64,000 nt of DNA. Source: Planctomycetota bacterium. GTDB taxonomy: Bacteria; Planctomycetota; Phycisphaerae; UBA1845. Made by a program: the position numbers and the translations under genes. Shown here in pieces: positions 24,186 to 43,124 of this stretch (position 1 is the first letter of the stretch; the number at the start of each line of letters is the position of its first letter). The DNA lies in contig JAUWWQ010000007.1 in NCBI GenBank assembly GCA_030616775.1, positions 1-64,000 on the forward strand, written 5' to 3'. The notes beneath the pieces were generated by a model. The model ran no database searches, was not told where the DNA came from, and saw only the letters and a list, made by a program, of their open reading frames with translations.

Positions 24186-25336
24186 ACCGGACAACGGTCG
24201 CATCGAATGGCGAATGTCGAATAGCAAATAGCGAAACCGGCGCTGACTGGCAGTCGTTATTCGCCATTTCAAAGTACTCTTCAAAGTGGGTTCGGCGGTT
24301 GGCAACGTCGGCCGTTGCCGCTGTCGTACTTTGTGCCGGCTCGGTGGCATGGGCGCAGGAACAGATACCGGAGCGGCTGCCCCAGCAGATTACGCCGGCG
24401 ACCAAATCAGCGATCGAACGAGGCCTTGCCTATCTCACCCGGACCCAGGATCGACAGGGATCGTGGTCCAATCAAGGGCGGTACGGCAAGTATCCGGTCG
24501 CGATGACGGGCCTGGCGGGGTTGGCGTTGCTTATGGACGGCAACACTACGACCCAGGGTCGGTACGCGCCGCAGGTGGATAGGGCAACCAGGTACTTGCT
24601 CCGCTCGGCCACCCAAAACGGTCTGATCGCAAGACCGGAGCACGAAGGGCGACCCATGTTTGGGCACGGGTTTTCAATGTTGTTTCTCAGCCAATTGTAT
24701 GGCATGACCGAGGATCCGACCCGGGCCCAGGAGATCCATGACGTGCTTTCCCGAGCCGTGCGTCTTACCGCCCGAGCCCAGAGTCATCCCGGGGGCTGGT
24801 ACTATACGCCCAATGCCCGCAGCGACGAGGGCTCCGTGACGATCACGCAGGTGCAAGCGCTACGCTCGTGTCGCAACGTGGGCGTAGCCGTACCGAAGGC
24901 CGTGATCAAATCCGCGATGAGGTACTTGGCCGATTCGCAAAACAGCGACGGAGGGATCCGCTACACTGTCCGCCAGCGGATGGGCAACTCCCGACCGGCG
25001 ATCACGGCTGCGGCGGTTTGTTGCTGGTTCAACGCAGGGCAATACGACAGTCCTCGCGCCAAGCGGGCGCTGGAGTTTTGCAAGCCGCTGATCAGGCCGA
25101 ACGGTACGCAAAGCGGACATGACTACTACGCCCATCTGTATCTCGCACAGGCCTTGTATATATCGGACGATCCGTATTGGGACGAGTACTTTCCCAAGCG
25201 GCGACAGTACCTGCTCGGCCGACAGCGGGCTGACGGGTCATGGATGGGAGACGGTGTGGGCGATATTTACGGGACCGCGTTAGCTCTGATCATTCTCCAA
25301 CTCCCGTATAATCAGTTACCGATCATGCAGCAGTGA
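24182..25336 (+). CDS. Exported alpha/alpha-toroid (prenyltransferase/squalene cyclase-repeat) protein
   Basis: The 384-residue protein has a hydrophobic export signal (LATSAVAAVVLCAGSVAWAQ) after an unusual 37-residue leader made largely from an ATTCGCC-type micro-repeat. The mature part carries repeats of the terpene cyclase toroid kind: IERGLAYLTRTQDRQGSWSN, MRYLADSQNSDGGIRY, YLLGRQRADGSWMGDG. The DxDD active-site motif of cyclases is not seen, so it is more likely a structural or binding toroid than an enzyme. The start overlaps the preceding stop (ATGA), which supports translation from 24182. A TTG near 24300 would omit the repeat-derived leader. Confidence 0.82.
   Translation: MNRTTVASNGECRIANSETGADWQSLFAISKYSSKWVRRLATSAVAAVVLCAGSVAWAQEQIPERLPQQITPATKSAIERGLAYLTRTQDRQGSWSNQGRYGKYPVAMTGLAGLALLMDGNTTTQGRYAPQVDRATRYLLRSATQNGLIARPEHEGRPMFGHGFSMLFLSQLYGMTEDPTRAQEIHDVLSRAVRLTARAQSHPGGWYYTPNARSDEGSVTITQVQALRSCRNVGVAVPKAVIKSAMRYLADSQNSDGGIRYTVRQRMGNSRPAITAAAVCCWFNAGQYDSPRAKRALEFCKPLIRPNGTQSGHDYYAHLYLAQALYISDDPYWDEYFPKRRQYLLGRQRADGSWMGDGVGDIYGTALALIILQLPYNQLPIMQQ
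24204..24235. repeat. ATTCGCC-type micro-repeat in the leader of the toroid gene
   Basis: Tandem GAATGGCGAATGTCGAATAG words, followed by CAAATAGCGAA, are translated as part of the N-terminal extension. Related tracts lie at 27423-27489, 39131-39151, 43121-43175, 44355-44402 and 54439-54491. Confidence 0.6.
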
Positions 25337-25445: not shown

Positions 25446-26525
<1,080 letters not shown>

Positions 26526-27509
26526 GGTCCTCAGCAAGATCTCACGACTGGAGCTGCGGGCCCGCCACATTGTCGAGGGGTTTGTCAGCGGTATGCACAA
26601 GAGCCCTTACAAGGGTTTCAGCGTGGAGTTCGCCAGTCATCGTTCCTATGTGCCGGGCGATGACATCCGGCATATTGACTGGCGGGTCTACGGCAAGGCC
26701 GATCGATTCTTCGTCAAGGAGTATGAAGAGGAAACGAATCTGCGCACACACCTGCTGCTGGATTGTTCAGGTTCGATGGCCTACCCGGAGCACCCCGGTA
26801 CGGGGCGCATGAGCAAGTGGGACTATGCGGCCACGCTGGCGGCTTCTCTGGCCCACTTGCTGATATATCAGCAGGATGGCGTCGGGCTGACACTGTTTGA
26901 CAGTGAGGTCCGCCAACAGCTCCCGGTCTCGACAAGCCGGGCGTCGTTGTACACGCTCGCGGCGATGATTGAATCAAACGCTCCGAAGGACAAGACCGAC
27001 CTGAAGGCGCTGTTCCAGCGTCTGTCCAGCAGTATTCCGCGCCGGGGAATGGTCGTCATCCTTTCCGATTTGTTGACTGACGCCGACGATATTATTCGTG
27101 GCCTGCAACGGTTTCGATACGATCAGCACGATGTGCTGGTGTTGCACGTGCTCGATCATGACGAGCTGGAGTTCCCGTTTGCCGACCGCACGCTGTTTGA
27201 AGGGCTCGAAGATGTAGACCTCGAGGTTCTGACCGACCCGCAATCACTGCGCAGCAGCTACCTCGAAGCGCTGCAAACGTTTGTCCGCAAGATGCGCGGC
27301 GTATGTCTGGATCACAAGATCGACTACGCCCTAATCAGCACGGCCGACAGCGTCGATGTCGCCCTGACAACGTTCCTGGCGACTCGGATGCGTCGGCAAC
27401 GAGCCAGGACCTAGGAGAATCGGGAATGGGCGGTAGCGAAATGTGAACGCGAAGAATCTCACTATTCGCCATTCGCTATTTGACATTCAGCATTGTTGAG
27501 TCGTCCCCT

Positions 27510-29957
27510 ATGCCACCAATGCCACCACTGCTTGCTGCCTTTGTCTCACCCGGCCTCTTCTTTGGCGGGGCGGCGGCCGTGGCTGCACCGATTCTAATCC
27601 ACTTGCTGGCCCGGAGGCGGTTCAGGCGGATCCGCTGGGCGGCAATGGACTTTCTGATTCATGCGGAGCGTCGCAACCGGCGGCGGCTGCGGATGGAGGA
27701 GTGGATTCTCCTGGCCCTGCGATGCATGGCCGTTGCTTTTATAGCCGCGATGGTTGCCCGGCCCTTTTTCAAGCCCGCGGGTCTGGCCATGTTGTGGGGC
27801 GGGTCGCAACACACGGAGCGGGTTTTCGTGCTGGATGATTCGTTCAGCATGGCCTACGAGTCGGCGGACGGTACGGTGTTTGACCGGGCCAAGCTAGCGG
27901 TGCGGCGCCTTGTTGAAGGTGTCCGAAGAGAGACACCGGATGACACGGTAACGATTCTACGGGCGTCGGCACCCTCATCGCCCGTGGAATCGGGTACGTA
28001 CCTCAGCGACGTGCAAACGGAGGAGCTGCTGGCACGACTCGATGCCCTGGCACCGTCACAGCGCTCGATTGATCCGGCAACCGTCGTCGAGGGCGTGGTC
28101 GAGATGCTGGAAAACAACCCGGACATCACGAATACGGCTGTCTACATTATCAGCGATTTTCAACGGCATGACTGGGTCCGGGTGGGTGGCCCGGGTCTTC
28201 AGACCTGGGGATCCGACTCGAGACCACGGGGAGAGTCCCCCACCTCTGAAGAGGTGGGCCACCCGTACGATGAGACTCGTCGGTCTGGTACCGTGCGGGA
28301 TTCCGCGCGGGCTAAAGCCCGCGGCTCAGGTACGCAAGCCCGCGGGCCGAGTATTTTGGCGCCGCTGGCGGCGTGGGCGGGAGATGATCGTGGGCTGCAA
28401 ACCGTGCTGATCAACGTCGGGATCGACGACGCGCGCAATCTGGCCGTTGCCGAGCTTAGCCTGGAAGGTGGCCAGCTCGTTGCGGGGGCGACTGGCACCA
28501 TCCGGGCGAAAGTGGGGAACTACGCCAACCGGTCGGTCGAGGACCTGGAGTTAGAGCTTACGGTTGGCAATCTTACCCAGCCGTCTAAGACGCTTCGCGA
28601 GCTGGGCCCGCAACAAACCGCATCTGTCGATTTGGAGGCGGAATTCGTCAGGGCGGGCTTCGAGGCCGTGCGCGTGGAACTTCCTCCTGATGCACTTCCA
28701 ATCGACAACGTCCGGTATGCCGCGGCTCAGGTAGTCAGCGCGATCCGCATCCTGATCGTCAACGGTGAACCGTCGGCGGACAGCTTCGACGATGAAGTGA
28801 CCTTCCTGACCACCGCGATGCGGCCGGAGGGAGAGGTGTTTAGCGGCAACGAGGTCGTTGTAGTTGACGAAACGGGATTCGAAGACGCCAATCTCGCGGG
28901 TTTCCACGTCGTCGTTCTGGCGAACGTGTATCGCCTCAGCGACCCGGCCATCGAGTTGCTGGAGCAGTTCGTGCGGCAGGGTGGCGGGTTGCTCTTTTTC
29001 CTGGGCGATCAGGTGGACGCCGACCTGTACAACGCCGCTTTCTACCGAGACGGCGAGGGAGTGTTGCCCGCCGAGTTGACCGAGGTCATCCGTGGCACCG
29101 GCGTATCGCATCTGATCGTAGCAGACAGGTTGCACTCTGTCATGCGCGGCCTCAGCAGCGAAGGTGATCCCCTGGGGATCTCTCAGATCGCATTTTTCGA
29201 GTACTTCGGATGCGTGCCATTCGATGTCACCGCGGATGATCCCATTGATGACTCGGGGGGGGGATCGTCCGTGAGCAGCGATAATGTTGAGGCACGGCGC
29301 AGCCGTCCCGGGCGTGTCATCGCCAGGTTTGACGACCCCGACGAGCACCCTGCCATGGTCGAGCGTCGGTTCGGGCGTGGAAGAGTGGTGCTCATCACCA
29401 CGGCCGCTGACAAGGAGTGGCACCAATGGCCGGATCACCCCACGTTCCTTCCGATCATGATGGAGCTGGTGCGTCATGTGGCTCATCAGGGCCGCACCGG
29501 TACGCAGCACTGGGTGGGCGACACGATCGAGCTTCCGCTCGACCCGGCCGTATTCGGGCCGGACAGCGTAGTGCGCACCCCCGCCTACCCGAACGAGCGC
29601 GAGGTGGGGCTGACCGCCGCCCCGGCGAGCGATGGACGAGGACTGAGGTTGAGCTGGGAGCACACGGACACGGCCGGAATGTACCAGTTTGTGCTTCCAC
29701 GGCACGAGGGCGGCGAAACCGTGAGGTTGGTGGCGGTCAACGTGGACCCGCAGGAGAGTGATCTGGCCGTGGCCGCGGAAGATGAGCTTCGCCAGGCCAT
29801 AAGCGATGTACCGTTCGACTACGTCAACGGTGTCGACAAGCTCACCGGGGCCGCCGGTGGAGCTCGAACGGAGCTGTGGCGACTTTTCCTGTTGGCGGCG
29901 GCTGCGGTGCTTCTGACGGAACAGAGTCTGGCCTGGTGGTGGGGCCGGAGGCGCTAA
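27510..29957 (+). CDS. BatA-like membrane protein with vWA and GATase-like domains, carrying an in-frame repeat insertion
   Basis: The 815-residue protein starts MPPMPPLLAAFVSPGLFFGG with the BatA N-terminal double membrane segment (HLLARRRFRRIRWAAMDFL, then LRMEEWILLALRCMAVAFIA). A vWA domain with MIDAS FVLDDSFSMAY follows, then CARDB-like beta sequence. A class I glutamine amidotransferase-like fold (ILIVNGEPSADSF to GGGLLFFLGD) has no catalytic Cys seen. A C-terminal membrane helix ends the protein. Residues of about 222-285 come from several GC palindromes inserted in the vWA region (28179-28350) without breaking the frame. The ATG at 27510 is chosen over a TTG at 27480 that lies in a micro-repeat. 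Confidence 0.85.
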   Translation: MPPMPPLLAAFVSPGLFFGGAAAVAAPILIHLLARRRFRRIRWAAMDFLIHAERRNRRRLRMEEWILLALRCMAVAFIAAMVARPFFKPAGLAMLWGGSQHTERVFVLDDSFSMAYESADGTVFDRAKLAVRRLVEGVRRETPDDTVTILRASAPSSPVESGTYLSDVQTEELLARLDALAPSQRSIDPATVVEGVVEMLENNPDITNTAVYIISDFQRHDWVRVGGPGLQTWGSDSRPRGESPTSEEVGHPYDETRRSGTVRDSARAKARGSGTQARGPSILAPLAAWAGDDRGLQTVLINVGIDDARNLAVAELSLEGGQLVAGATGTIRAKVGNYANRSVEDLELELTVGNLTQPSKTLRELGPQQTASVDLEAEFVRAGFEAVRVELPPDALPIDNVRYAAAQVVSAIRILIVNGEPSADSFDDEVTFLTTAMRPEGEVFSGNEVVVVDETGFEDANLAGFHVVVLANVYRLSDPAIELLEQFVRQGGGLLFFLGDQVDADLYNAAFYRDGEGVLPAELTEVIRGTGVSHLIVADRLHSVMRGLSSEGDPLGISQIAFFEYFGCVPFDVTADDPIDDSGGGSSVSSDNVEARRSRPGRVIARFDDPDEHPAMVERRFGRGRVVLITTAADKEWHQWPDHPTFLPIMMELVRHVAHQGRTGTQHWVGDTIELPLDPAVFGPDSVVRTPAYPNEREVGLTAAPASDGRGLRLSWEHTDTAGMYQFVLPRHEGGETVRLVAVNVDPQESDLAVAAEDELRQAISDVPFDYVNGVDKLTGAAGGARTELWRLFLLAAAAVLLTEQSLAWWWGRRR
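28179..28350. repeat. Composite palindromic repeat inside the BatA-like gene
   Basis: Three hairpins follow one another: CCCGGGTCTTCAGACCTGGG, CCCACCTCTGAAGAGGTGGG, and the REP-like CCGCGCGGGCTAAAGCCCGC-GGCTC at 28303-28327. GGGTGGCCC and GGGCCACCC arms bracket the first two. The reading frame stays open and encodes a Gly/Arg/Ser-rich linker. Confidence 0.75.
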
Positions 29958-29964: not shown

Positions 29965-32454
29965 ATGTTGTATCTACCGTTGACAATCTTGCCCCTGCTC
30001 GCCGGCCCGGTCACGCGCGACCAGCAGGAGTTCGTGACCGAGCTTCGCCACATGCCCGAGGGTTGGCCGGCGGTTGCGGGTTTCGCCCTGGTTGCCGGCA
30101 TTTGCTGGGCGGTCGTGTGGATGTACCGCCGTGAAGGGCGTATCGGAGCGTCCTTGTGGGTGCGGATGACTCTGGCGGTCGTGCGCTGTGCCGTATTTGT
30201 GACATTGGCTGTCATTCTGCTGGAGCCGGTGCGCGTGCGAATCCTTCGCCGTTGGGTCGACTCGTACACGGTTGTTCTGACCGACGACTCATCGAGCATG
30301 GGTCTGGCGGACGCATACCGCGACGAATCGGCCGCCCAACGCGTCGCACAAGTGTTCGGCACGTCGGACTTGTCGCCCATTCGCCGCACAAGTGTGGTCG
30401 AACAGGTTTTCAATCAAAGCGATAAGAAGTTTCTGCGAGACCTTGCGGCCAACAACCGGCTAAAGCTCTACACTTTCAGCGATGAACCGCGGCTACTGGC
30501 GACCATCCGGGCGACCCGCGAGAGCAGAGTCGGGCGTGCCGACACCGGCGACAATACTCAAACACTGCTAGGTGTCGACGAGGTTCCGACCGAAATGGCC
30601 GGGACGGGACCCGCCACCAACATTGAACGTGCCGTGCATCGTGCCGTCGAGTCGCTGGGCAGCGCGCCGGTGGCGGCGGTGGTCGTTTTCAGCGACGGCG
30701 GGTTTAACCAGGGGGCTACGGCCGAGGAGACCGGGCGCTACGCGCGCGATCGCCGGCTTCCGGTCCATGTGATCGGGGTGGGCGATCCCTCAAGCCCGCA
30801 GAACGTACGCGTCGCGGAGATTCTTGCGCCCCCCAACGCGTTTCAGCAGGACCCCTTTCCTGTTTCCGTCCGCCTTTCGGCCGAGGGTCTCGAAGGGCGA
30901 ACCGTTCACGTCCGGCTTCGCGAGCGGAACGACACCGAGGGGGGACCGGGAGGTATTGTGGACCAGCGAAACGTGCGCGTCGGCCCCGGCGGGGCGATCG
31001 AGCCGGTGACATTCGAGCGCCGCCAGAACAGTGTCGGCCGTTTCGTCTACACCGTTGAGGTGCCGGTTCTCGAAGGAGAGTCGGTCGCCGACGACAACAG
31101 CAAACAAACGACGGTAAACGTGATCGACTCGCGCACGCGGGTTCTTGTGGTCGCCGGCGGCCCGAGCTGGGACTATCGTTTTGTTTCCCGGCTATTGGAG
31201 CGTGACGAGACGTTCGACGTAAGCTGTTGGCTGCAGTCGGCGGATTTGAGCGCCGTGCGCGACGGCAACACCATCGTCGATCACCTTCCCGCGACGGCCG
31301 AGGAGTTGTTCGAATATGACGTGATCGTGCTGATGGATCCCGACAAAGAGGAGTTCAATGAGTCATGGTGTCGGCTTGTTGACACTCTGGTGACGGAATA
31401 CGGCGGTGGGCTCTTGCTCACCGCGGCCCGCCCCCAGACGCCTTCCTTCATGCGTGACCGGTCGCTGAAACCTTTGCACGACCTGCTCCCGGTTACGCTC
31501 GATCCGGAGGCCGATCTGCTCTTGAACGAGATCGGGCACTATCAGCTTTCCGGCTCAGCGATGGCCATCCCGTCGACGTCCTACGGGCATCCGGTAATGA
31601 AGCAGGCTGATAACCCGGTTTCGACAAAGCTGGCCTGGCAGGGAATCGGTGACATCCATTGGCACTATCCGGTTCTGCGTGAGAAGCCCGTGGCTACGGT
31701 GCTGATGCGCCACGGCAACCCGCGCATGCGGAACTCGTTCGGCGAGCATGTCCTGGCGGCGGTACAGTTCGTGGGCGCGGGACGCACCGGGTTTCTGGGT
31801 TTCGATGGGACCTGGCGGTGGCGGCGCCATGGAGTGGAACTGTTCGATCGGTTCTGGGTCCAACTGATCCGCTATCTGGCGGAAGGCAAGCTGCTGGGCG
31901 GCACGAAACGGGGCATGCTTCTGACCGAGAGCGATCAGTACTCTATCGGCGACGCCGTTACGGTGACCGCCCGCCTCTTCGACAGGCAATACAAGCCGCT
32001 CAAGGACGATCAGGTCATCGCTCAGCATCGCGTCGACGGGGACAAGGGGGATTTCGTGATGACCGCACTGCGAGACCGGCCCGGGTGGTTTGAGGGGCGG
32101 TTCGTCCCCGACCGCACGGGCAGCTATCGCCTCAGCCTGAAGATGGCCGACCCGGACTCGAGCGACCTGATGGAGATTGTGCGGGAGATCAGGGTCACCC
32201 GGCCCAATATCGAGATTCTCCGCCCGCAGATGGATCGTGACAAGCTGATGGCCCTTGCCGAGCAGTCCCACGGTGGGCGTTACTTCGAGGTGGACGAGGC
32301 CGCCAGCGTACCGGCCTTGATTCCCGATCTTCATGAGGAGATACCGATCCGATCGCGTCCCACGGCGCTGTGGGACAACTGGAAGACGCTCACACTGCTG
32401 CTCGTCCTTCTGTCGGTTGAGTGGGGTGTGCGCAAATGGAATCGTTTGTTGTGA
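29965..32454 (+). CDS. Membrane protein with vWA and GATase-like domains (BatB/C-like)
   Basis: The 829-residue protein has three N-terminal and one C-terminal hydrophobic segments (AVAGFALVAGICWAVVWMY, VVRCAVFVTLAVILLEPV, LTLLLVLLSVEWGV). Its vWA domain has a MIDAS-type VVLTDDSSSMGLA and later AAVVVFSDGGFNQG. A beta-sandwich segment is followed by a GATase-like domain beginning VLVVAGGPSWDYRFVSRLLE with DVIVLMDPDKEEF. It lies 7 nt after the BatA-like gene and has the same domain order, so the two probably arose by duplication and work together at the membrane with MoxR. Confidence 0.85.
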   Translation: MLYLPLTILPLLAGPVTRDQQEFVTELRHMPEGWPAVAGFALVAGICWAVVWMYRREGRIGASLWVRMTLAVVRCAVFVTLAVILLEPVRVRILRRWVDSYTVVLTDDSSSMGLADAYRDESAAQRVAQVFGTSDLSPIRRTSVVEQVFNQSDKKFLRDLAANNRLKLYTFSDEPRLLATIRATRESRVGRADTGDNTQTLLGVDEVPTEMAGTGPATNIERAVHRAVESLGSAPVAAVVVFSDGGFNQGATAEETGRYARDRRLPVHVIGVGDPSSPQNVRVAEILAPPNAFQQDPFPVSVRLSAEGLEGRTVHVRLRERNDTEGGPGGIVDQRNVRVGPGGAIEPVTFERRQNSVGRFVYTVEVPVLEGESVADDNSKQTTVNVIDSRTRVLVVAGGPSWDYRFVSRLLERDETFDVSCWLQSADLSAVRDGNTIVDHLPATAEELFEYDVIVLMDPDKEEFNESWCRLVDTLVTEYGGGLLLTAARPQTPSFMRDRSLKPLHDLLPVTLDPEADLLLNEIGHYQLSGSAMAIPSTSYGHPVMKQADNPVSTKLAWQGIGDIHWHYPVLREKPVATVLMRHGNPRMRNSFGEHVLAAVQFVGAGRTGFLGFDGTWRWRRHGVELFDRFWVQLIRYLAEGKLLGGTKRGMLLTESDQYSIGDAVTVTARLFDRQYKPLKDDQVIAQHRVDGDKGDFVMTALRDRPGWFEGRFVPDRTGSYRLSLKMADPDSSDLMEIVREIRVTRPNIEILRPQMDRDKLMALAEQSHGGRYFEVDEAASVPALIPDLHEEIPIRSRPTALWDNWKTLTLLLVLLSVEWGVRKWNRLL

Positions 32455-32480
32455 ACCTGCGCGGTTGAGTGAGGCAAGCC

Positions 32481-34616
32481 ATGCGGCGCGGCGTAGCCGA
32501 AAACGCTGAACGGACAGCTTCGACGTTGGATGCGTCGGTGGTTGGGCGTTTGCGCGCCGTGGCGGTTCGACTTCGCCGGTACGTGCTGATCGAGGGAATC
32601 GCCTGGGTGGTGGTGTTCTTGATGCTTGCGGCCGCGGTTCAGCTATCGGTTGATTACGGCACGCGAGGACTGCAGTGGAGTATGCGCGCCACGATGCTGG
32701 GACTGATCGTCCTGGGTGCGTTGTGGCTCTTGTGGCGTCGCGTGGTAGCACCGCTGCGGCGTCGGTTCGGGCTCGCCGAGGTCGCCAACCTGGTCGAGCG
32801 GCGGTATCCCGAGCTATGCTCGTTGTTGATCTCAGCAGTCAGATTCTCCACTGGAGAGATGGGCCCGCCGGAGGCTAATTCCCGGGATCTTGTAGCCACC
32901 GTGATAGCCCAGGCCGGATCAAAGGTAGGCGCGCTTGGATTCAGCGGGGTACTCGATCCGCGTCGGGCCCGCTGGTCCGGCGTGGCGCTGGCCGCGGCAT
33001 TTCTCGCTTGCGCCGTCGCCACGGCATCTGCGCCGGAGCTGGCGGGGCTCTGGTTTGCCCGCAACGTCCTCTTGCAGAACGTAGAGTGGCCGAAACGCAC
33101 CCATCTGATCGTGGAGCTGGAGGGCGACGAACTGATCGGTGCGCGCGGTGATGACCTCGTGGTGCAGGCTCGTGCCAGCGGGGTGCAGCCGCGTGCGGTG
33201 GAGATTGTCTATGAGACGGAGTCGGGGCGTCGCGGGCGCGAGACGATGGTGACCGTGGGCAGCCGCGGCTCATTCCACTATCGCTATACCTTCAAGAATG
33301 CTCAGGAGGATTTTGTCTTCCACCTTGAAGGTGGTGATGACCGGACCAAAGACTTTCGGGCCCGCCTGCTGGAAAGACCGCGAGTTACGCGTACCGACAT
33401 GCACCTGGTGCCGCCGGCTTATACTCGCCTGGAATCATCGACACTCGGCGATGGCCGGCGGGCGGCGCAGATCCTGCCCGGAAGCCGTGTGACCATCAAC
33501 ATCGAGACAAACAAACCTGTCACAACGGCGACACTCATGGCAGGTCGCGAGGCCGTGGCGGAGGCGCTGCCTGACGGCGATGGTCTGGCGGCTATCATCT
33601 TACCGCAGGAAACGCATACCTATCACTTTGCGCTGGTGGACGAAGTCGGGCTGGAGAACCGCCGGCCGGTTCGGTTCTCGCTGCGGGTGATTCGCGATGA
33701 ACCCCCACGGGTGCGCATGAAGCTGCCCGGTGTCGGCGAGATGATAACTTCCCAGGCCGCGGTGCCGATCGAGCTGGAGTGCTCCGATACCTACGGTCTG
33801 GCTACGGCCGAGCTAGTCTATACGGTGTCGCGTGAGGGCGTGATTGAGGGATTGATTCCGCTGCCGACATTCAGGCCGAACATGACCACATTCGCGACCA
33901 GTCTTAGCTGGCCGGTTGCCACTGAAGGGTTGGAGTCCGGAGAGACCTTGACGCTGTTTGTCCGCGCGACGGATTTCGACGACGTCTTCGGTCCCAACCA
34001 TGCCCAAACACCGGAGACAATGCTCCGAGTCGTCACGAAGGAAGAGCTTCTGGCGGAGTTGGCCAGACGCGAGCAGGAATATCGGGCCGACTTCGAGCAT
34101 CTGGTCGATTCGCAGGAACGGCTGCGCAGCGGGCTGCTGACGGTATTGGGGCGATTTCAGGATGCGGAGCCTGTGGAGACCCTGGCAGCGGATCTCACCC
34201 CGCTCGAACGGCGACAGCGGAACATTGCCGGTTCGGTCAACGTGATCCGCCAGCAGTTCGAGCAGATTCTGACAGAGCTAAGCGTCAATCAGCTTGATAC
34301 CCTGGATGCACGGGAACGGCTGGGCGAGCTTATCGTGGGTCCGCTGACCCAGCTCACCAAACGGGACCTGATCGCGGCTGCCGACACCATCCGACAATGG
34401 TCCCGTGAGGGGTCGGCTGAGAAGGCCTCCCGCATCGACCCGCAGCAGGTTGCGATTTTGTCACAGATGCGGGCTGTGCTGGCGAATATGATACAATGGG
34501 AGGGGTATCAGGAGGTGGTGAAGATGTTTCGCGACATCATCCGTCTCCAACAGGAAATCCATGGGGAAACAAAGGACGCCTTGGAGGATCAGGCACGTGA
34601 CGTGTTCGAGGAGTAG
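32481..34616 (+). CDS. Membrane-anchored DUF4175-like protein
   Basis: The 711-residue protein has two hydrophobic segments near the N-terminus (YVLIEGIAWVVVFLMLAAAV and MRATMLGLIVLGALWLLW) and a third at about 175-195. A long beta-rich periplasmic region (200-520) and a helical C-terminal part with charged coiled-coil stretches follow. This layout resembles DUF4175/TIGR02302 proteins, but I cannot confirm the match. ATG at 32481 is chosen over an upstream GTG. It is followed by a coiled-coil gene, a pairing consistent with a transmembrane scaffold. Confidence 0.7.
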   Translation: MRRGVAENAERTASTLDASVVGRLRAVAVRLRRYVLIEGIAWVVVFLMLAAAVQLSVDYGTRGLQWSMRATMLGLIVLGALWLLWRRVVAPLRRRFGLAEVANLVERRYPELCSLLISAVRFSTGEMGPPEANSRDLVATVIAQAGSKVGALGFSGVLDPRRARWSGVALAAAFLACAVATASAPELAGLWFARNVLLQNVEWPKRTHLIVELEGDELIGARGDDLVVQARASGVQPRAVEIVYETESGRRGRETMVTVGSRGSFHYRYTFKNAQEDFVFHLEGGDDRTKDFRARLLERPRVTRTDMHLVPPAYTRLESSTLGDGRRAAQILPGSRVTINIETNKPVTTATLMAGREAVAEALPDGDGLAAIILPQETHTYHFALVDEVGLENRRPVRFSLRVIRDEPPRVRMKLPGVGEMITSQAAVPIELECSDTYGLATAELVYTVSREGVIEGLIPLPTFRPNMTTFATSLSWPVATEGLESGETLTLFVRATDFDDVFGPNHAQTPETMLRVVTKEELLAELARREQEYRADFEHLVDSQERLRSGLLTVLGRFQDAEPVETLAADLTPLERRQRNIAGSVNVIRQQFEQILTELSVNQLDTLDARERLGELIVGPLTQLTKRDLIAAADTIRQWSREGSAEKASRIDPQQVAILSQMRAVLANMIQWEGYQEVVKMFRDIIRLQQEIHGETKDALEDQARDVFEE

Positions 34617-34665
34617 ACTCGTGTGCAGCGAAGTGCGGTGCGGATCAAAACTCGGAGCGGCGGCG

Positions 34666-36624
34666 ATGAACTCCGACACCCGATGCTTGCGCCTTCGAAC
34701 TGGTAGCATGTACCCCCACGTGACACGGCGTTCGCGCATATCGACCACGATTACGGCAGCACTGCTGGCGTCGGCATATCTGCTGATTCCGGTGCGTTTC
34801 GCCGTGGCCCAGGAATCCGGCGATGCGGAGGTGGCCAAGGTCCATCCCCTGGCGTCAAAGGAAGAGATGATTCGCGATCGATTCCAGCGGTTTGAAGATC
34901 GCGTCTACCGCCTGCGCGAGTTGCTCGGCGACGGAGAGCCGGACAACGCTTTGCGCCTCGGCCGGGTGCTCCAGCGGGCCGGCGAGTTGGGACTTGCCGA
35001 TCGGTTGGAGGAGATGATCGAGCTGCTTCATGACCCTTCGTTGTTGAACGATGCCACGGACACGCAAGCGAGATGGCTCGCCGACGCCGATCGTGTACTG
35101 GCTATCTTGCTCGAACGGGACAGCGAAAACGTAGAACGCAAACAGGCACTCGAGCGTCTGCAAGAGTACTACCAGAGGGTGGACAAGATCTTGGAGCAGC
35201 AGCGAGATCTGCGTCACGGCGCCGGTCAGGCGAGCACCACCGGACGGATGACGGAACAGCTAGACCAGGCGATTGAGCGCATCAATGCCCTGCTCGATCG
35301 CCAGGCGGACATCTCTGAAGACACCGAGCGCGGGCTGGACGCAATCGCTCAAACGCCAAAGCAACTTGCGGAACAGCAGGGCGATCTGTCACGTGACACC
35401 GGGCAAATGGCCGGGGACCTTCAGCGGCTCGGGGCGATGCTGCCGCAGCCTGCAGCCGACGCACCGACGCAGCAGTCGCCGCAAGGCAACCTGGATGCCG
35501 CAGCCGACTCCGTCCAGAACGCCGAGGGTGCAATGCAGAGCGCGAGCAGCAGTCTTCAGCAAGGTGACGCACCTTCGGCCCGTCAACAACAGGAAGAGGC
35601 TAGCGATGCCCTGCGCCAGGCTAGAGAGGAGCTCGAAGAGGCCAAAGGACGACTTGAAGAGCAGCAAGACGCCCGGGAGCTGGCCCCGGAGCAGCAGAAG
35701 CTCGCCGACGAGACAGGCGGCCTCTCCGAACAGATGCAAAGGGATGCACAGGCCGGCGGTGCCAAGGGCCAGCCAGGTGCCCCAGGCGCTCAGGGGGAAT
35801 CCTCGCCGCCGGGTCAGCAAAGCCTCGATCAAGCCCAGCAGGAAATGGGGGAAGCCGCAGAGGCCCTGGGACAATCGAATCCACAAGAGGCAATGCCCAG
35901 CCAGGACCAAGCCATCCAGCAACTCGAGCAGGCCCGGAAGGAGTTGGAGGAAGCGCTGAATCAGCTTCGTCAGGAAGAGCGGGAGGAAACACTGCGAGAC
36001 CTCGAAGGTCGTTTTCGGGAGATGCTCTTGAAGCAAAGGGCTATCAACGAGTCCACCGCCCGCTACGACCAGTTGGGCCGGGATAACTTCACGCGGGCGG
36101 AGCATTTGCAGCTCGCCGATTTGTCGACCCAGGAGCGAACCTTGTCAGAGGATGCAGCCTCCTGCCTGCACATTCTCGACGAGGACGGCACTACCATCGT
36201 CTTTCCGAATGTGGTGGGGCATCTCTCGGAAGATATGGGCGCGGTGGCCGACAGACTGGCAGCCTATCAGGTCGGGGCGCTGACCCAGGCGATCGAGCAA
36301 GAAATCGTGGAGACGCTCGAACAACTGCTGGGAGCGGTGCAGCGCATGCGGCAGGACAACGAACAACAGGGCATGTCCGGCCTCAGCAGTGACGCCGGGC
36401 AGTCTCCGCTGCTGCCTCAGTCGGCCGAGCTGAAGCTGCTGCGCGCCAGCCAGCTCCGCGTCAACACGCGGACGGCGGCAATCGAAGAGGACGTCAAGAC
36501 TATAGAGAATCGAAACGTCCAAACGGATAGCGATCTTCTTGAAGTGTTTCGGGCAGTGGCAGCGCGTCAGGTTGAATGTGCCGGAATCGCCAAGGAGATG
36601 CGCGATCGCCGGTATCAGCCGTAG
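34666..36624 (+). CDS. Exported Gln/Glu-rich coiled-coil protein
   Basis: The 652-residue protein has a signal segment TTITAALLASAYLLIPVRFA ending VAQ. It is then almost wholly helical, with long Q/E/A-rich heptad-like stretches (RQQEEASDALRQAREELEEA, QLEQARKELEEALNQLRQEE) and a short Gly/Pro linker around GQPGAPGAQGESSPPG. It probably forms an extended periplasmic rod. ATG at 34666 has GGAG 9 nt upstream, while a longer frame overlaps the preceding gene. No enzymatic motif is seen. Confidence 0.75.
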   Translation: MNSDTRCLRLRTGSMYPHVTRRSRISTTITAALLASAYLLIPVRFAVAQESGDAEVAKVHPLASKEEMIRDRFQRFEDRVYRLRELLGDGEPDNALRLGRVLQRAGELGLADRLEEMIELLHDPSLLNDATDTQARWLADADRVLAILLERDSENVERKQALERLQEYYQRVDKILEQQRDLRHGAGQASTTGRMTEQLDQAIERINALLDRQADISEDTERGLDAIAQTPKQLAEQQGDLSRDTGQMAGDLQRLGAMLPQPAADAPTQQSPQGNLDAAADSVQNAEGAMQSASSSLQQGDAPSARQQQEEASDALRQAREELEEAKGRLEEQQDARELAPEQQKLADETGGLSEQMQRDAQAGGAKGQPGAPGAQGESSPPGQQSLDQAQQEMGEAAEALGQSNPQEAMPSQDQAIQQLEQARKELEEALNQLRQEEREETLRDLEGRFREMLLKQRAINESTARYDQLGRDNFTRAEHLQLADLSTQERTLSEDAASCLHILDEDGTTIVFPNVVGHLSEDMGAVADRLAAYQVGALTQAIEQEIVETLEQLLGAVQRMRQDNEQQGMSGLSSDAGQSPLLPQSAELKLLRASQLRVNTRTAAIEEDVKTIENRNVQTDSDLLEVFRAVAARQVECAGIAKEMRDRRYQP

Positions 36625-36645
36625 GGGCCGAGCGTGGTCACCAGG

Positions 36646-37713
36646 ATGTTGAAAATACAGATGCGCCGTGGCACGACTTATTGGTTCAGAGTGTCGAGCT
36701 TCGTCGCCGTCATTATGGTCGGAGTGTGCGTGGGCACAGTCGCAGGCCAGAGTCCGGTTGACCGCTTCATTGCCGGCCTGGACGCCGACCCGGCCATACC
36801 CGCCGATGCAGTCAAACTTATCCGGGAAACATGGGCGAAGTGTCAGGACTGTGACGGTGATGAATTCCTTACTCAGGGATTGGCGTTGTTGTCACCGAAG
36901 TTCCGCGACGGCCTTGATGCCTATGATGCGGGCCGAAATGAACAGTGCGCGGACACGATGGGGGCACTGCGTCAGGACCCGAACGCTTTTGTGGGCATGC
37001 ACGCGGCGGCTTACGAAATCAAGGCGCTAGTGGCCATCGACCGGCTTCTCGAAGCCGGCGAGCGGATCGAGCAGCTTCTTGGCGACAAACCTGAGGGTCC
37101 AAAGCGTGTGGGCAAGTATTCGTACCTTGCCCCCGAGATCGCATTTTTGCAGGGGTACTGCCTGCTTGCGGACTTGCAGTACGACGCGGCCGCCGAGGCC
37201 CTGTACCGATTCCTGGACACATATCCCGGCGCTTCGCAGCGGCTGGTTATCTCGGCCCGGCAAATGCTGGCGGAGCTGGAGAATCGGCAGCCGGGTCGGA
37301 TCGGGGAGGTCGCCGACCTGATGGACTATGCCGGTCGGCGACTCACGCACCGGGACTCGGGCGCCAAGGTCCGAGAGAGGCAGCAGCGCATCATCGATAT
37401 TATTGATAGGCTGATCGAAGATGCGGAAGATCTGGAGAGCAACAGCAGCAGTAGCAGTAGCAGCAACGGTGGCGACAGCAGCCGGCGCGGCGGACAAGAG
37501 CCCAACAATCCCATGCCGGACTCCATGCTGCCCGGCGGCCGTCCGCAAGAGGGTCCGCTGCAATCCGGGCGGCGGGCTAATCCTGGTGAGGTCTGGGGTT
37601 CAATGCCGCCCGCGGAGCGCGAGCGCATCCTGCAAGCGCTGCGCGACAACTTTCCGAGCCGCTACCGCCGACTCGTTGAACAGTATTACGAGCAACTCGC
37701 CAAGAAACCCTAG
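36646..37713 (+). CDS. Exported TPR-like protein with serine-rich linker
   Basis: The 355-residue protein has a hydrophobic export segment (SFVAVIMVGVCVGTVAGQ). A helical repeat region (about 40-235) follows with YDAAAEALYRFLDTYPGASQ, a typical TPR-like unit. A run of serines and glycines (SNSSSSSSSNGG) precedes a C-terminal tail that ends RILQALRDNFPSRYRRLVEQ. The tail pattern, LPP-like then ERILQALRDNFP, recurs in planctomycete vWA-cluster proteins. ATG 36646 is preferred to the GTG at 36634. Confidence 0.72.
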   Translation: MLKIQMRRGTTYWFRVSSFVAVIMVGVCVGTVAGQSPVDRFIAGLDADPAIPADAVKLIRETWAKCQDCDGDEFLTQGLALLSPKFRDGLDAYDAGRNEQCADTMGALRQDPNAFVGMHAAAYEIKALVAIDRLLEAGERIEQLLGDKPEGPKRVGKYSYLAPEIAFLQGYCLLADLQYDAAAEALYRFLDTYPGASQRLVISARQMLAELENRQPGRIGEVADLMDYAGRRLTHRDSGAKVRERQQRIIDIIDRLIEDAEDLESNSSSSSSSNGGDSSRRGGQEPNNPMPDSMLPGGRPQEGPLQSGRRANPGEVWGSMPPAERERILQALRDNFPSRYRRLVEQYYEQLAKKP

Positions 37714-39101
37714 TGGATGTGCGGCTGGTGAAACGACGACCATCTCGACATGCGGCGACTTCAGCTAGTTTGCGGCCGGGGCTCGTTTCTGTTGCCCTTG
37801 GCGCCGTGGCATCGTTGGGTGTCGCAGCGGTGGCCGGGGCTCCAGAGGTCGAAGCCGTTCGCATTGATGGGACAAAAGTGGCCGGTGCTTGGGTCGGCTC
37901 TCGTGACGGCCGCACCGTCGAGCTTCAGACTACAGACGGCCGGGAGGTGATTGCGGTCGATGATCTGTCCAGCCTCATGTTTCGCCGTTGGGTAGGTCGA
38001 GAAGCACCACGGTCGCAGGAACCTGACGTCAAGCCGCCGGGACATGGCTCCGACGAGACAAGGGAAAGACCCGCGGACAATGCATCATCAACGTCGGTGA
38101 CCGCCGTGTTCTATCTTGCAGACGGAGGACACCTGCACGGTGAGCTGTGCAGTGCGTCCCGGCAAACGGACGCCGTTGTGACTCACACCGCTCTTGGCGA
38201 AGCTATCTCGCTCGCCTTCGACCGACTTGCGGGCATTCAGCTCGCAAGCTGCGAAGAGTTCCCCAAGGCCGATGGGCTTTTTCGCGACGCCCTCTCCTCC
38301 CGGCTGCCGGGGCAGGACGTGCTTATCACCCGGAACGTCGAGGATGTCAAAACGCTGCGTGGTCGTTTGGAGGGGCTGGATGCTCAGGGTGGATCGTTCG
38401 TCTTCGGCGAGCCGGCGCGAGACTTCAAGACGGAGAAGATATTCGGCGTTGTCTTCGCTGCCGGCGCGGGCCGCGAGCGTCCTCAACACCACCAGGTGAC
38501 CGTGACACTGACCGACGGTTCGGTGTTCTTGGGCCGGATCGAGCGCGCCGACGCCTATTCGATTCGCATCGAGACGTCGCTGGGTGTTACCGCGGACGTA
38601 CCTCTCGCCGCCGTGGCGAGCGTCGACGTTCACAGCGATCGCGTCGTCTACGTCAGTGATCTGTCGGTGGCCGGTCAGCGCGTCGAGGGTTTGATGCATC
38701 GCTCCTGGCCTGTGCGTTTTGATCAGTCGGTATCGGGTGGGTCCCTCTCTATCGGCGGGCGCGTGTTCGAGAAGGGGCTGGGCGTGCACAGTCTCACGGA
38801 GCTGACCTTCGAGATCGCAGGCGATTTCGAGACATTCGTTGCCACGATCGGCATCGACGATTCGGTTCAGCCTCGCGGCAGTGTCGTGTTCCGCATTCTG
38901 GGTGACACGAAAGTCCTGTTCGACAGCGGGGTGATGACTGGAGCTGACCCGCCGAGAGATATCATTGTCGATGTTTCGGGTGTCAATTCTCTGACACTAA
39001 TAGTCGACTACGGTGATGAGCTGGATCTTTGCGACCATGCGGACTGGGGAGATGCCAGGCTGCTGAAAGCGCCCAAGCCGACGCCTGGGGAAACCTCGTA
39101 A
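37713..39101 (+). CDS. Exported protein with C-terminal NPCBM domain
   Basis: The 462-residue protein has a hydrophobic N-terminal segment (LVSVALGAVASLGVAAVAGA) and a repeated beta-strand motif (DGTKVAGAWVGSRDGRTVEL, DGGHLHGELCSAS, DGSVFLGRIERADAYSIRIE). The C-terminal 150 residues form an NPCBM/NEW2-type carbohydrate-binding domain (SIGGRVFEKGLGVHSLTELT, FVATIGIDDSVQPRGSVVF, SLTLIVDYGDELDLCDHADW). The gene begins at a GTG that shares a base with the previous stop. A role in binding glycans of the envelope is inferred. Confidence 0.8.
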   Translation: MDVRLVKRRPSRHAATSASLRPGLVSVALGAVASLGVAAVAGAPEVEAVRIDGTKVAGAWVGSRDGRTVELQTTDGREVIAVDDLSSLMFRRWVGREAPRSQEPDVKPPGHGSDETRERPADNASSTSVTAVFYLADGGHLHGELCSASRQTDAVVTHTALGEAISLAFDRLAGIQLASCEEFPKADGLFRDALSSRLPGQDVLITRNVEDVKTLRGRLEGLDAQGGSFVFGEPARDFKTEKIFGVVFAAGAGRERPQHHQVTVTLTDGSVFLGRIERADAYSIRIETSLGVTADVPLAAVASVDVHSDRVVYVSDLSVAGQRVEGLMHRSWPVRFDQSVSGGSLSIGGRVFEKGLGVHSLTELTFEIAGDFETFVATIGIDDSVQPRGSVVFRILGDTKVLFDSGVMTGADPPRDIIVDVSGVNSLTLIVDYGDELDLCDHADWGDARLLKAPKPTPGETS

Positions 39102-40888
39102 TGGGACTGGGTACCGTTTCTCGTTATTGGCCATTCGCCATTCGCCATTCCAACAGTCTGGCGAGGCGCGCGCTTACGTGGCTGGTTCTCGTGCCCGGCG
39201 CAGCCGCAGCCGGTGTGCCGTCGGATATCGTCCTCCAGGCGGAGGCCCGGCGCGTCGAGATGATCGAGCGTGCCGCCCCGAGTGTGGTCTGTGTCTTCGA
39301 TTCGCTGCAACGCGCCGGCGGCTCCGGAGTCTTGATCGATCCGCAAGGCTACGGACTTACCAACTACCACGTCGTCGCCGGACTCCTGGGCAGCCGGAAG
39401 GGCCTGGGGGGACTCGCCGACGGCGTGTTGTATGAACTAGAGGTGCTCGGGATCGACGTGACCGGGGACGTGGCGATGTTCCGCTTGATCACGCCTAAGC
39501 CGGGGTTCGTTTTTCCCCACGCCAAACTCGGCGATTCCGATGCGGTGCACGTGGGTGACACCGCAATTGCCATGGGAAATCCTTTCTCACTCAGTCAGGA
39601 TTATAGCCCGACCGTATCTCTCGGGATTGTCACCGGCGTTCATCGATATCAGCAGGGTGTCCGCGGCAACCTGGTGTACACTGACTGCATTCAGGTCGAC
39701 GCACCGATCAACCCCGGCAATTCCGGCGGCCCGTTGTTCAACGAGGCCGGTGAGGTCATCGGGATCAACGGGCGAATCTCCGTCAACACTCGCGGACGCT
39801 TTAACGTCGGGTTCGCATACGCGATATCCTCGAACCAGATCAAACGCTTCATACCCGCGCTGCGAGCCGGATTGCTGGCACGGCACGGCACCTGGCAGGC
39901 CATAGTCGAGAACCTGGACGGTGTCGGTGTGGTGTTCTCCCGTGTTGGAAAGTCAGGGCCGGCATATCGGGCCGGCGTGCGTGTAGGTGACAGATTGTTG
40001 TCGCTTGACGGCGTGGGGATTACATCGGCCAATCAGGTGATGAGCATGCTCGGCACCTATCCAGCCGACTGGCCTACGCTTCTTCAGATCCGGCGTGAGG
40101 CTGCGCCGCGAGAGGTGATTGTGCGGCTGGACGCCGTAAAGCCGAAGATGCGCAATCCCTTTACAGTTAATGAGGATGTCAACCTGCGGCAGGTAAGACG
40201 CGTGCTCGGCGCATTTCGGCGGGCTGTTCTGGGTGGCGACGCTGGCAAGCGATCCGGCAGTTGGAGGTGGACCGTGGCGCGCCACTACCATGCAGGTGCG
40301 GACGGTAGTGCCAGATCGCCGGAACGTTTCGAGGCATCACAAACCGGCGACGGGCCGATACGCATGCAGCAGCGCTACGCAGACGGTTCGCTGGGCCGGC
40401 GCATAGAGTACGACGATCGCGTGGCCACGGAACGCGTTACGGGGGATGAGGAACCGTACAAGCTGCCTGCCGATGTCAGTGTGATCCTGGCCGCTCTGTA
40501 TACGGTGCAGTACAGGTTGCTTGAACCGGATCCCGACGTCGAGCTGACGGACGTTACCCATGTCGGTGCTGATGCGCTCGTGGAACGGTCGGCAAATCCG
40601 CTACCTGTAGGAGTACAACTCGACCCGAGGGACAAGGCTGAGCCGCAATTGCTGGAGGTCATTAGTTGGCCTTTGACAAACGGGGCCGTGGCCAGGTTCG
40701 CGTTCGACAGCGAATCGTTCGCCGTCGTTCGCATCCGTGTCCATGAACCTGTCTCGGGCGCCAAGGCCACCATCGAACTGAGTGACCATAAGGACATCGG
40801 CGGCCTGGTCTGGCCCTGCACTATCAAGGTCAAGGGTGACGGCTATGCTTACTGTGACACGTTGTCGGATTGGGAGCTGTCCCCGTGA
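39101..40888 (+). CDS. HtrA/DegP-type serine protease with PDZ domain (active triad)
   Basis: The 595-residue protein keeps the full trypsin-like triad: H90 (GLTNYHVVAG), D123 (VTGDVAMFRL) and S218 (NPGNSGGPLF). A PDZ domain follows (about 300-375: GPAYRAGVRVGDRLLSLDGV) and then a C-terminal domain of about 200 residues without known motifs. A hydrophobic segment (LTWLVLVPGAAAAG) near residue 25-38 acts as export signal. The first 20 residues derive from an ATTCGCC micro-repeat. The ATG shares a base with the preceding stop. It is the only catalytically complete member of three consecutive HtrA-like proteins. Confidence 0.9.
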   Translation: MGLGTVSRYWPFAIRHSNSLARRALTWLVLVPGAAAAGVPSDIVLQAEARRVEMIERAAPSVVCVFDSLQRAGGSGVLIDPQGYGLTNYHVVAGLLGSRKGLGGLADGVLYELEVLGIDVTGDVAMFRLITPKPGFVFPHAKLGDSDAVHVGDTAIAMGNPFSLSQDYSPTVSLGIVTGVHRYQQGVRGNLVYTDCIQVDAPINPGNSGGPLFNEAGEVIGINGRISVNTRGRFNVGFAYAISSNQIKRFIPALRAGLLARHGTWQAIVENLDGVGVVFSRVGKSGPAYRAGVRVGDRLLSLDGVGITSANQVMSMLGTYPADWPTLLQIRREAAPREVIVRLDAVKPKMRNPFTVNEDVNLRQVRRVLGAFRRAVLGGDAGKRSGSWRWTVARHYHAGADGSARSPERFEASQTGDGPIRMQQRYADGSLGRRIEYDDRVATERVTGDEEPYKLPADVSVILAALYTVQYRLLEPDPDVELTDVTHVGADALVERSANPLPVGVQLDPRDKAEPQLLEVISWPLTNGAVARFAFDSESFAVVRIRVHEPVSGAKATIELSDHKDIGGLVWPCTIKVKGDGYAYCDTLSDWELSP

Positions 40889-41964
40889 AGTGCCTCGATG
40901 TCACAGTCCTGACGGCTCTATCAGCGCTTCTGATCAGCCCAGTTTCGACGATAGGGAGCGGATTCGACCGAGCGATTGCCGCCGCAATGCCGCGTGTTGT
41001 AAAGCTCTACGGGCTCGGAGCGGGGCTGCAGGCAGGGTACGGAACGGGGGTGATTGTCTCGGAAGACGGCCTGGTGTTGACGGTCTATTCACTCTTGATC
41101 GACGCCCGCCGTATCAGGGTGGTTACCTCAGACGGAACAGTGTTCGAGGCTGACGTGGTAAACCGCGACCCGCAACGGCAACTGGCGCTGCTTCAACTGA
41201 AGCCTGTCACAACCGATGAGGCTTCCGTGCTGAAGAAGACCGTGGGTCCGTTTCCGTTCTTCGATCCTGCCCGCGAAGCAACGTTGAGGCCGGGTGACTG
41301 GGTGTTGGCTGCCGGGAACTCCTTCAAGGTTGCCCATGGGGCCGAGCCGCTTTCGCTGGCTCACGGCGTCTTTTCCGCGCGGACGCGGCTGGATGCTCGA
41401 CGCCGCTTAAGGGATTTTCCCTACCGCGGCGACGTTCTGGTCATTGACGCCATAACCAGCAACCCCGGGGCTCCGGGCAGTGCACTTGTCAACCTCGACG
41501 GCGATTTGGTGGGCATGATCGGTCGCCAGGTCGTCTCAAACCTGACGCATACCCACTTCAACCACGCCGTGCCGCGTGACGTGCTCTACGAGTATTTTGT
41601 CGAAATCACCAGCACGGACTCAGACGATATCTCGCGCCAAAGCGAGAGGGAAAGGCTGGCAGCAGTACCACAGGCTGAACCGCCATTCGATCCCGGGATC
41701 AGGTTGAGCCGAACCGGTTATCAGCGGGTTCTTCCGTTTGTCGAACACGTGCGTTCAGGTTCACCGGCCGATCAGGCCGGAGTCCGCAAGGATGACCTCA
41801 TACTCTCGGTCAACGGGCGAAACGTGCCCGACACAGCCGCGTATGAGGCCCGCGTCAATATGCTGGCACCGGACGAACCCATGGATCTTGTGATCCGTCG
41901 AGGTCGGGGGATTTTGAGCATCCGCGTCGAAACGTCGAAACAGGAGGGTTCAGAACAGCGGTGA
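40885..41964 (+). CDS. HtrA-like pseudoprotease with PDZ domain
   Basis: The 359-residue protein has the fold of the preceding protease but has lost every catalytic residue. The His position is S69 (LTVYSLL), the Asp position is Q99 (DPQRQLALLQL) and the Ser position is P177 (NPGAPGSAL). The PDZ domain is retained (SGSPADQAGVRKDDLILSVN). An N-terminal hydrophobic signal (VTVLTALSALLISPVST) is present. GTG at 40885 overlaps the previous stop (GTGA). It probably serves as a binding or regulatory partner. Confidence 0.85.
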   Translation: MKCLDVTVLTALSALLISPVSTIGSGFDRAIAAAMPRVVKLYGLGAGLQAGYGTGVIVSEDGLVLTVYSLLIDARRIRVVTSDGTVFEADVVNRDPQRQLALLQLKPVTTDEASVLKKTVGPFPFFDPAREATLRPGDWVLAAGNSFKVAHGAEPLSLAHGVFSARTRLDARRRLRDFPYRGDVLVIDAITSNPGAPGSALVNLDGDLVGMIGRQVVSNLTHTHFNHAVPRDVLYEYFVEITSTDSDDISRQSERERLAAVPQAEPPFDPGIRLSRTGYQRVLPFVEHVRSGSPADQAGVRKDDLILSVNGRNVPDTAAYEARVNMLAPDEPMDLVIRRGRGILSIRVETSKQEGSEQR

Positions 41965-43124
41965 CGGGTGTACGAATCCTTACCATCGGAATTGGCCTCG
42001 GTCCGTTGTGCTTCACAGGAGCGGTTGGCGAGGCGGACTCGACCGGGAACGCAGCTTACGAAGTGCTTCGCGCGACGCAGAAGACCTTTCGTAACGTAGC
42101 GGCGGACATGCGGCCCTATCTCGTTCGCGTCGAGACGGTTGGTGGTTCGCAGCCGCGCGGCCTGGTTCGCATCGACGAAGAGGAAGGCCGACCCGCGCCG
42201 CGGCGGCGGCCGCAAGGCCCGTTTAGGGACACCACCGGGTCTGGATTTGTCATCGCGGACGGTCCAACCACGGGGATTGTCTATTCCGCTGACGGCTACA
42301 TCGTCACAAGCAGCGTCAACTTCGTACGGGAACCCGTGTTGATCTCGGTGACCTTGGCCGATGGCCGTCGCCTTGCCGCAGAGCTGGTGGCTCGCGACCG
42401 GGTGCGCAAAATCGCCCTTCTGAAGGTGGATGCTGTGGGGCTACCCGTGCCCACGTGGTGTGAGATGGCCGACATCCGTGTCGGGCAGTGGGCGGTCGCG
42501 CTAGGTTTGGGGTTTGGCGGCGAGGCGCCCTCCGTGACCGTCGGGATTGTAAGTGCGCTCGATCGGATGCAGGGAAATGCCGTCCAGGCTGATGCGAAGC
42601 TGAATCCGGCCAACTACGGTGGACCGCTTTGCGACATACACGGTCGCGTGATCGGCATCTGCGTCCCAATGGCCCAGCGGCCCGGAGAGCTGGCCGGCAT
42701 GGAGCTGTATGACTCCGGGGTTGGATTCGCCCTTCCGAAACGCCGCCTCGACGAGATTGTCGCCGTCTTGAAGACCGGCCGGTCGTTGTATCGGGGTTGG
42801 CTGGGGATCTCCATCGACCCGAGCGCCACCGATGCCCTGGTCATACGGAATGTCGCTGTTCCGTCACCGATGCATGAGGCCGGCGTGGGGCCGGGTGACA
42901 AAATCCTCGCCGTGGACGGCAAGTCGGTTCGGCATTTCGGCGACCTCGTGCACGCCCTGTACATGATCCCGGCCGGCGAGCAGGTCCATCTGGAAATGGA
43001 ACGCGACGATTCGGCGTACGGACTTCTGGTTACGCTCGCCCGCAGCACCGAGCTGGGTCCGCTTCCAGAGCTTGAGGAACCCCTGGACCCGTCAAGCCCC
43101 TTGCCGGACCCTGGTGACGAATAG
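41961..43124 (+). CDS. Second HtrA-like pseudoprotease with PDZ domain
   Basis: The 387-residue protein also has an HtrA core without a triad. The His position is V119 (DGYIVTSSVNF), the Asp position is K140 (DRVRKIALLKVD) and the Ser position is Y219 (NPANYGGPL). It has an N-terminal signal segment (ILTIGIGLGPLCFTGAVG), a proline/arginine-rich insert (RPAPRRRPQGP) and a PDZ domain (MHEAGVGPGDKILAVDGKSV). It ends in an acidic/proline-rich tail. GTG at 41961 overlaps the previous stop (GTGA). It closes the long operon. Confidence 0.85.
   Translation: MTGVRILTIGIGLGPLCFTGAVGEADSTGNAAYEVLRATQKTFRNVAADMRPYLVRVETVGGSQPRGLVRIDEEEGRPAPRRRPQGPFRDTTGSGFVIADGPTTGIVYSADGYIVTSSVNFVREPVLISVTLADGRRLAAELVARDRVRKIALLKVDAVGLPVPTWCEMADIRVGQWAVALGLGFGGEAPSVTVGIVSALDRMQGNAVQADAKLNPANYGGPLCDIHGRVIGICVPMAQRPGELAGMELYDSGVGFALPKRRLDEIVAVLKTGRSLYRGWLGISIDPSATDALVIRNVAVPSPMHEAGVGPGDKILAVDGKSVRHFGDLVHALYMIPAGEQVHLEMERDDSAYGLLVTLARSTELGPLPELEEPLDPSSPLPDPGDE

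Follow-up and report, generated by a model that had tools for sequence, protein, structure and literature searches.

Three tandem same-strand open reading frames at positions 39101-43124 of the 64,000-nucleotide stretch of planctomycete DNA analyzed here (the window) encode HtrA-like proteins, designated P1, P2 and P3, of which only P1 has an intact catalytic triad. The analysis shows triad absence in P2 and P3, conservation, co-inheritance, gene fusion and predicted fold, and the long joint retention suggests that P2 and P3 function as partners of the live enzyme. We consider it somewhat better than an even bet (roughly 0.6) that P1, P2 and P3 make up one exported unit, most likely a mixed HtrA oligomer in which P1 would be catalytic and P2 and P3 non-catalytic.

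The array and its active sites

Each of the three proteins matched PF13365 (Trypsin_2) and at least one PDZ model above the Pfam cut-offs, and their N-termini were hydrophobic and, as judged by eye, compatible with export signals. The genes overlap one another and the gene before them: the NPCBM stop and the P1 start share TAATG at 39099-39103, and the P1/P2 and P2/P3 junctions are both GTGA (40885-40888 and 41961-41964). These results bear out the initial annotation of this DNA, which had described one complete protease followed by two triad-less copies, all with PDZ domains and export signals and with starts overlapping the preceding stops. No Pfam family matched the C-terminal part of P1 (about residues 350-595, window 40150-40888), which is found in many orthologues and is missing from the short P1+P2 fusions. 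The source genome, a planctomycete MAG, contains 10 PF13365 matches altogether, which makes the trio a distinct group alongside ordinary HtrAs.

The triad of P1 is intact, H90-D123-S208, within the motifs TNYH90, GD123VAMF and NPGNS208GGP. The corresponding motifs of P2, numbered from the GTG start at 40885, are TVYS69, RQ99LALL and NPGAP197GSA, and those of P3 are TSSV119NF, RK150IALL and NPANY219GGP; in both, the triad is lost (Table 1). The initial annotation had named all nine residues correctly and six of the nine numbers stand, the other three becoming S208 for S218, P197 for P177 and K150 for K140. Alignment to DegP structures, which it had proposed as a check, confirmed that P2 and P3 lack triad residues: pairwise alignment of P2 with DegP 3otp paired the same sites as the motifs did, and alignment of P3 with a DegP-like chain placed a 1-residue gap beside the His, making the His equivalent either V119 or N120, neither of which is His. 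Apart from this one-residue ambiguity, a search of alignments to DegP-like chains for catalytic residues at shifted positions in P2 and P3, the outcome that the annotation had said would count against it, found none.

Table 1. Positions in the window of the array, its active-site codons and the upstream genes.
Feature	Position	Strand	Basis or remark
PQQ beta-propeller/TPR protein, operon head in most of the order	19413..24185	+	domains, synteny
Squalene-hopene-cyclase-like protein	24182..25336	+	domains, synteny
MoxR-type AAA ATPase (AAA_3)	25446..26525	+	domains, synteny
DUF58 protein	26494..27414	+	Pfam, synteny
BatA-like protein with VWA domain	27480..29957	+	Pfam, synteny
VWA-domain protein (VWA2)	29965..32454	+	Pfam, synteny
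U715, uncharacterized	32469..34616	+	synteny
U687, DUF4175-like	34561..36624	+	Pfam, synteny
U359, uncharacterized	36634..37713	+	synteny
NPCBM-domain protein, stop overlaps P1 start	37713..39101	+	Pfam, synteny
P1, HtrA-type protease with triad and PDZ	39101..40888	+	ORF, Pfam, triad, orthologues
P1 catalytic His90 codon	39368..39370	+	motif
P1 catalytic Asp123 codon	39467..39469	+	motif
P1 catalytic Ser208 codon	39722..39724	+	motif; initially S218
P2, pseudoprotease (trypsin-like and PDZ)	40885..41964	+	GTG start overlaps P1 stop
P2 Ser69, His site	41089..41091	+	motif and DegP alignment
P2 Gln99, Asp site	41179..41181	+	motif and DegP alignment
P2 Pro197, Ser site	41473..41475	+	motif and DegP alignment; initially P177
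P3, pseudoprotease (trypsin-like and PDZ)	41961..43124	+	GTG start overlaps P2 stop
P3 Val119, His site (most orthologues Phe)	42315..42317	+	motif, orthologues
P3 Lys150, Asp site	42408..42410	+	motif, orthologues; initially K140
P3 Tyr219, Ser site (Tyr/Phe in 92/92)	42615..42617	+	motif, orthologues

Across most of the order the gene order is PQQ-propeller, SQHop-like, MoxR, DUF58, BatA, VWA, U715, U687, U359, NPCBM, P1, P2, P3, and in family f52 the cluster begins at MoxR. The succession of AAA_3, DUF58, BatA and VWA genes is that of a MoxR/VWA (Bat/MRP-type) operon. Upstream of the trio in one genome (G047, locus L186) the operon genes were absent, and the U359 gene of that genome lies elsewhere in it. 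In another part of the window (45362-48093), genes for an ECF sigma factor, a putative anti-sigma protein and an STN-domain protein stand in a row just past the converging lgt and panC-like genes.

Conservation and joint inheritance in Planctomycetota

A protein scan returned a single relative, a Phycisphaerales bacterium whose P3 was 96% identical to that of the window, so further relatives were sought by whole-genome profile searches and their loci were fetched and annotated with the window proteins and profiles. In the first 60 loci, P1 retained H, D and S wherever these were readable, and P2 and P3 lacked the matching triad residue at every site. In the wider planctomycete set the His-Asp-Ser signature of an HtrA/Deg enzyme was present in 97 of 97 readable P1 copies (three incomplete rows were left out) and in no P2 or P3 orthologue read. 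The 95 P2 copies mostly had S/Q/P or S/Q/A and never more than one triad residue, and the 92 P3 copies mostly had F/K/Y or F/R/Y, with H, D and S absent at all sites and the Ser site occupied by Tyr in 87 and Phe in 5. Because the same substitutions were seen in about 90 other planctomycete loci, chance or sequencing error is excluded, and since the replacement residues are themselves conserved, they are unlike the outcome of drift.

Two side observations concern divergent copies. Locus L181 (genome G417, family f34) has an array of P1 with two diverged copies that lack the triad (R-G-F and N-N-T) and whose placement in the tree is unsure. In families f52 and f93 and their relatives, eight P3 ORFs (L150, L151, L154, L155, L158, L161, L162 and L166) carry a second PDZ domain and, on weak matches to PHA/PHB depolymerases, a C-terminal alpha/beta-hydrolase-like domain, whose G-x-S-x-G elbow, read by eye, lacked the Ser in 8/8. 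If these domain matches hold, P3 of this type would bear a second dead enzyme domain on one protein.

Conserved replacements also bear on the idea that P2 or P3 catalyzes by another mechanism with shifted residues. The His site of P2 usually holds a Ser and the Asp site of P3 a Lys or Arg, which might be put to such use, but neither has an intact triad or dyad, P3 lacks Ser, His and Asp at all three sites, its oxyanion Gly is replaced (PANYGG), and in the orthologue alignments His was absent from the invariant and near-invariant columns of both proteins. We therefore regard a relocated active site as very improbable.

Selection was estimated as NG86 dN/dS among neighboring genomes, and the ratios were 0.06-0.23 for P1, 0.07-0.25 for P2 and 0.04-0.20 for P3; many of these pairs were near silent-site saturation, and the unsaturated pairs were consistent with them (0.145, 0.139 and 0.165 for L079/L080, and about 0.09 for P3 of the window versus G048). 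By these ratios, purifying selection is as strong on P2 and P3 as on P1. That two adjacent copies both lack the whole triad could have marked P2 and P3 as decaying duplicates, that is, pseudogenes. This has practically no chance of being correct: values of 0.04-0.25, far below the dN/dS near 1 that the initial annotation had named as evidence against itself, together with open frames and conserved residues throughout the phylum, rule out such decay.

The co-occurrence of the three genes was scored over 114 genomes belonging to the order. P1 was present in 84, in single copy each, and P2 in 82; P2 was absent from all 30 genomes without P1. The only mismatches were G048 and G060, in both of which P1 and P3 are present and the assembly is interrupted at P2, so that the apparent P2 losses are unreal. 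P3 was found in 73 of 73 sampled P2-positive genomes, including those with P3 on another contig (G054-57, G021 and G109). The operon of f2 and that of G034/G045 stop right after NPCBM, with P1, P2 and P3 jointly absent. Within the order, then, the trio is all-or-none, barring the two assembly breaks. A further apparent loss of P2, in CP070827.1 (L011), was also rejected, the gene being interrupted by a 100-N scaffold gap (L011:7756-7855); the sequence upstream of this gap is unrelated, so that this publicly deposited MAG chromosome contains a misjoin.

P1 and P2 formed a single ORF in 17 of 93 loci, and the fusion corresponds to 5-8 state changes on the P1 tree; a first fusion alignment (A5) was excluded because it had aligned P1 C-terminal regions onto the P2 half. 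Co-occurrence, joint loss and P1+P2 fusion together show that P2 and P3 are retained alongside the active P1. Since P3 lies apart from P1/P2 in g5, G021 and G109, a fixed 1:1:1 stoichiometry is not required.

Across much of the phylum, the array closes the same MoxR/DUF58/BatA/VWA operon. P3 was detected by profile search in further orders of the class and in many additional families of the phylum, the family counts being lower bounds because only a few candidates per genome were scored, and beyond the order P1, P2 and P3 were mostly adjacent with the same genes upstream. In a tree of 111 domains, P1, P2 and P3 formed separate groups with matching internal splits, which indicates that the trio is old and co-inherited; the tree was a quick one in which a few divergent rows fell outside their groups and deep branches are provisional. 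Early branches of the P3 group include copies with triad remnants (L170 with F-D-S, L171 and L173 with F-D-V, L172 with F-D-A, L116 with V-D-Y and L117 with T-D-Y). A plausible order of loss would be His, then Ser, then Asp. Loci L170-L174 (families f33 and f100) have arrays ordered P2-like, P3-like, P1 with triads partly kept, and are possible intermediates of triad loss. The array is thus ancient rather than a product of local decay, and the dead copies have been retained with P1 since.

Predicted folds and a proposed mixed oligomer

The predicted structure of P3 (pLDDT 88.8, pTM 0.86) matched Deg1, DegQ, DegS and AlgW with Z of 24-27 across protease and PDZ domains (26.7 to Deg1 and about 25 to DegQ/DegS). 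A natural P1+P2 fusion (L074) was predicted with pLDDT 84.1 and a pTM of 0.75, at which the packing of its halves is not fixed; its P1 half gave Z 32 to PepD, and its P2 half scored about 26 against the protease domain of DegS. P2 and P3 are therefore predicted to retain an intact HtrA fold. Profile comparison with solved DegP-like chains gave E of about 1e-62 to 1e-65 for P3 and 2e-39 for P2, and PF13365 followed by PDZ, together with the tertiary fold of the models, places the proteins in the HtrA/Deg (S1C) fold family. Their scores against TIGR02037 (DegP/DegQ) were 181 (P1), 112 (P2) and 167 bits (P3), below its curated cut-off of 416. The Gly of the PDZ carboxylate loop was retained in 94/94 readable P2 and 90/90 readable P3 copies, whereas P1 mostly has GTLxATV there, which fits a division between sensing and cutting.

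The initial annotation had proposed selection for a non-catalytic role, and this is strongly supported for P2 and P3 by dN/dS, conserved replacements, co-occurrence, fusions and intact predicted folds. Among the roles it named, hetero-oligomer subunit is tentatively favored over adaptor or chaperone. In the mechanism we propose, catalysis would be left to P1, and P2 and P3, old paralogues in which the protease fold of HtrA and the PDZ domain persist, would be non-catalytic subunits with a regulatory or structural part. The three would assemble into a mixed oligomer, a heterotrimer replacing the usual homotrimer, in which the P2/P3 PDZ domains may detect peptide ligands and the adjoining loops may tune the single live site of P1. 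In known HtrAs such as DegS and DegP, activation is transmitted through loops between neighboring subunits, which makes dead but loop-competent neighbors plausible as regulators. Physical assembly, stoichiometry, allosteric role and client are what we infer here.

The trio would act downstream of the MoxR/DUF58/BatA/VWA machinery of the same operon. MoxR/VWA pairs are considered chaperone-like, and our working guess is accordingly a role for the cluster in envelope quality control or assembly. A stronger version is an obligate, asymmetric heterotrimer with a single catalytic subunit beside two dead ones, which would be ancestral to planctomycetes, divide peptide sensing (PDZ domains of P2 and P3) and catalysis (P1) between separate chains and be tied to an envelope MoxR/VWA chaperone system. 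It is tentative, and we think it rather more apt to be wrong than right.

Co-inheritance is also compatible with partners that make no contact, as in MamE/MamO. P2 and P3 could serve the P1 pathway from outside its oligomer, as adaptors or scaffolds for clients or for the VWA/BatA proteins, or as indirect activators like MamO, a triad-less HtrA pseudoprotease that supports MamE proteolysis without catalysis of its own and for which physical interaction with MamE was not detected (PMC4794232). The operon shared with MoxR/VWA proteins, the occasional location of P3 on another contig and the second PDZ and hydrolase-like domain gained by P3 in f52/f93 suit this arrangement, but repeated P1+P2 fusion and all-or-none loss fit direct partnership better, and we judge it unlikely, at perhaps one chance in four. 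Less probable again is an inhibitory role, with P2 and P3 as subunits or pseudosubstrate-like clamps by which P1 would be kept latent pending their removal on a signal. Tight co-occurrence with P1 and the bulky Phe/Tyr at the active-site positions of almost every P3 orthologue could be read this way; the sequences give no pointer to inhibition over activation, however, and permanent covalent P1-P2 fusion speaks against a removable inhibitor. The mixed oligomer remains our preferred reading.

Relation to known systems

HtrA proteases are textbook homo-oligomers in which PDZ binding and loop contacts of neighboring subunits provide the regulation. If the proposal is true, a natural HtrA system with one cutting and two dead members would allow this subunit cross-talk to be dissected. 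The trio likewise clearly exemplifies double pseudoenzyme evolution, with early branches in which part of the triad (one or two residues) survives. In addition, it offers a handle on a large uncharacterized envelope operon of the Planctomycetota, whose cell envelopes are unusual.

DegP, DegQ, DegS, AlgW and HhoA (MEROPS S1C), homo-oligomers of active subunits, have the protease and PDZ fold in common with P2 and P3, which lack their triad. Arabidopsis Deg5 and Deg8 are two different HtrA paralogues that reportedly cooperate in one compartment, but both have catalytic residues and, unlike the trio, include no dead subunit. A structural study of the two is available (PMC3640471). In the mixed ClpP/ClpR rings of cyanobacteria, active and dead paralogues are thought to share one proteolytic oligomer; its fold is unrelated to HtrA, and it is cytosolic and ATP-dependent. 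Bat/MRP-type MoxR-DUF58-BatA/VWA operons have the same gene order as that upstream of the trio, and we know of no Bat operon with an HtrA trio.

No description of a planctomycete HtrA pseudoprotease was found in the open-access literature library that our search covered. Single HtrA pseudoproteases are already known, as MamO illustrates; new relative to that literature is a pair of pseudoproteases that occurs phylum-wide and in obligate association with an active paralogue and a MoxR/VWA operon. The closest precedent is MamE/MamO of magnetotactic bacteria, likewise an active and a triad-less HtrA in one gene cluster (PMC4794232), although there is one pseudoprotease there versus two here and the operon differs. 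MamO has a His-bound metal and a TauE transporter domain, whereas P2 and P3 have PDZ domains and no conserved His; a MamO-like metal site was rejected for them, the conserved His pair being absent from the alignments. Scores against the NCBIfam MamO model were 43 (P1), 34 (P2) and 21 bits (P3), far from its cut-off of 800. The trio and MamE/MamO probably represent a similar idea of independent origin.
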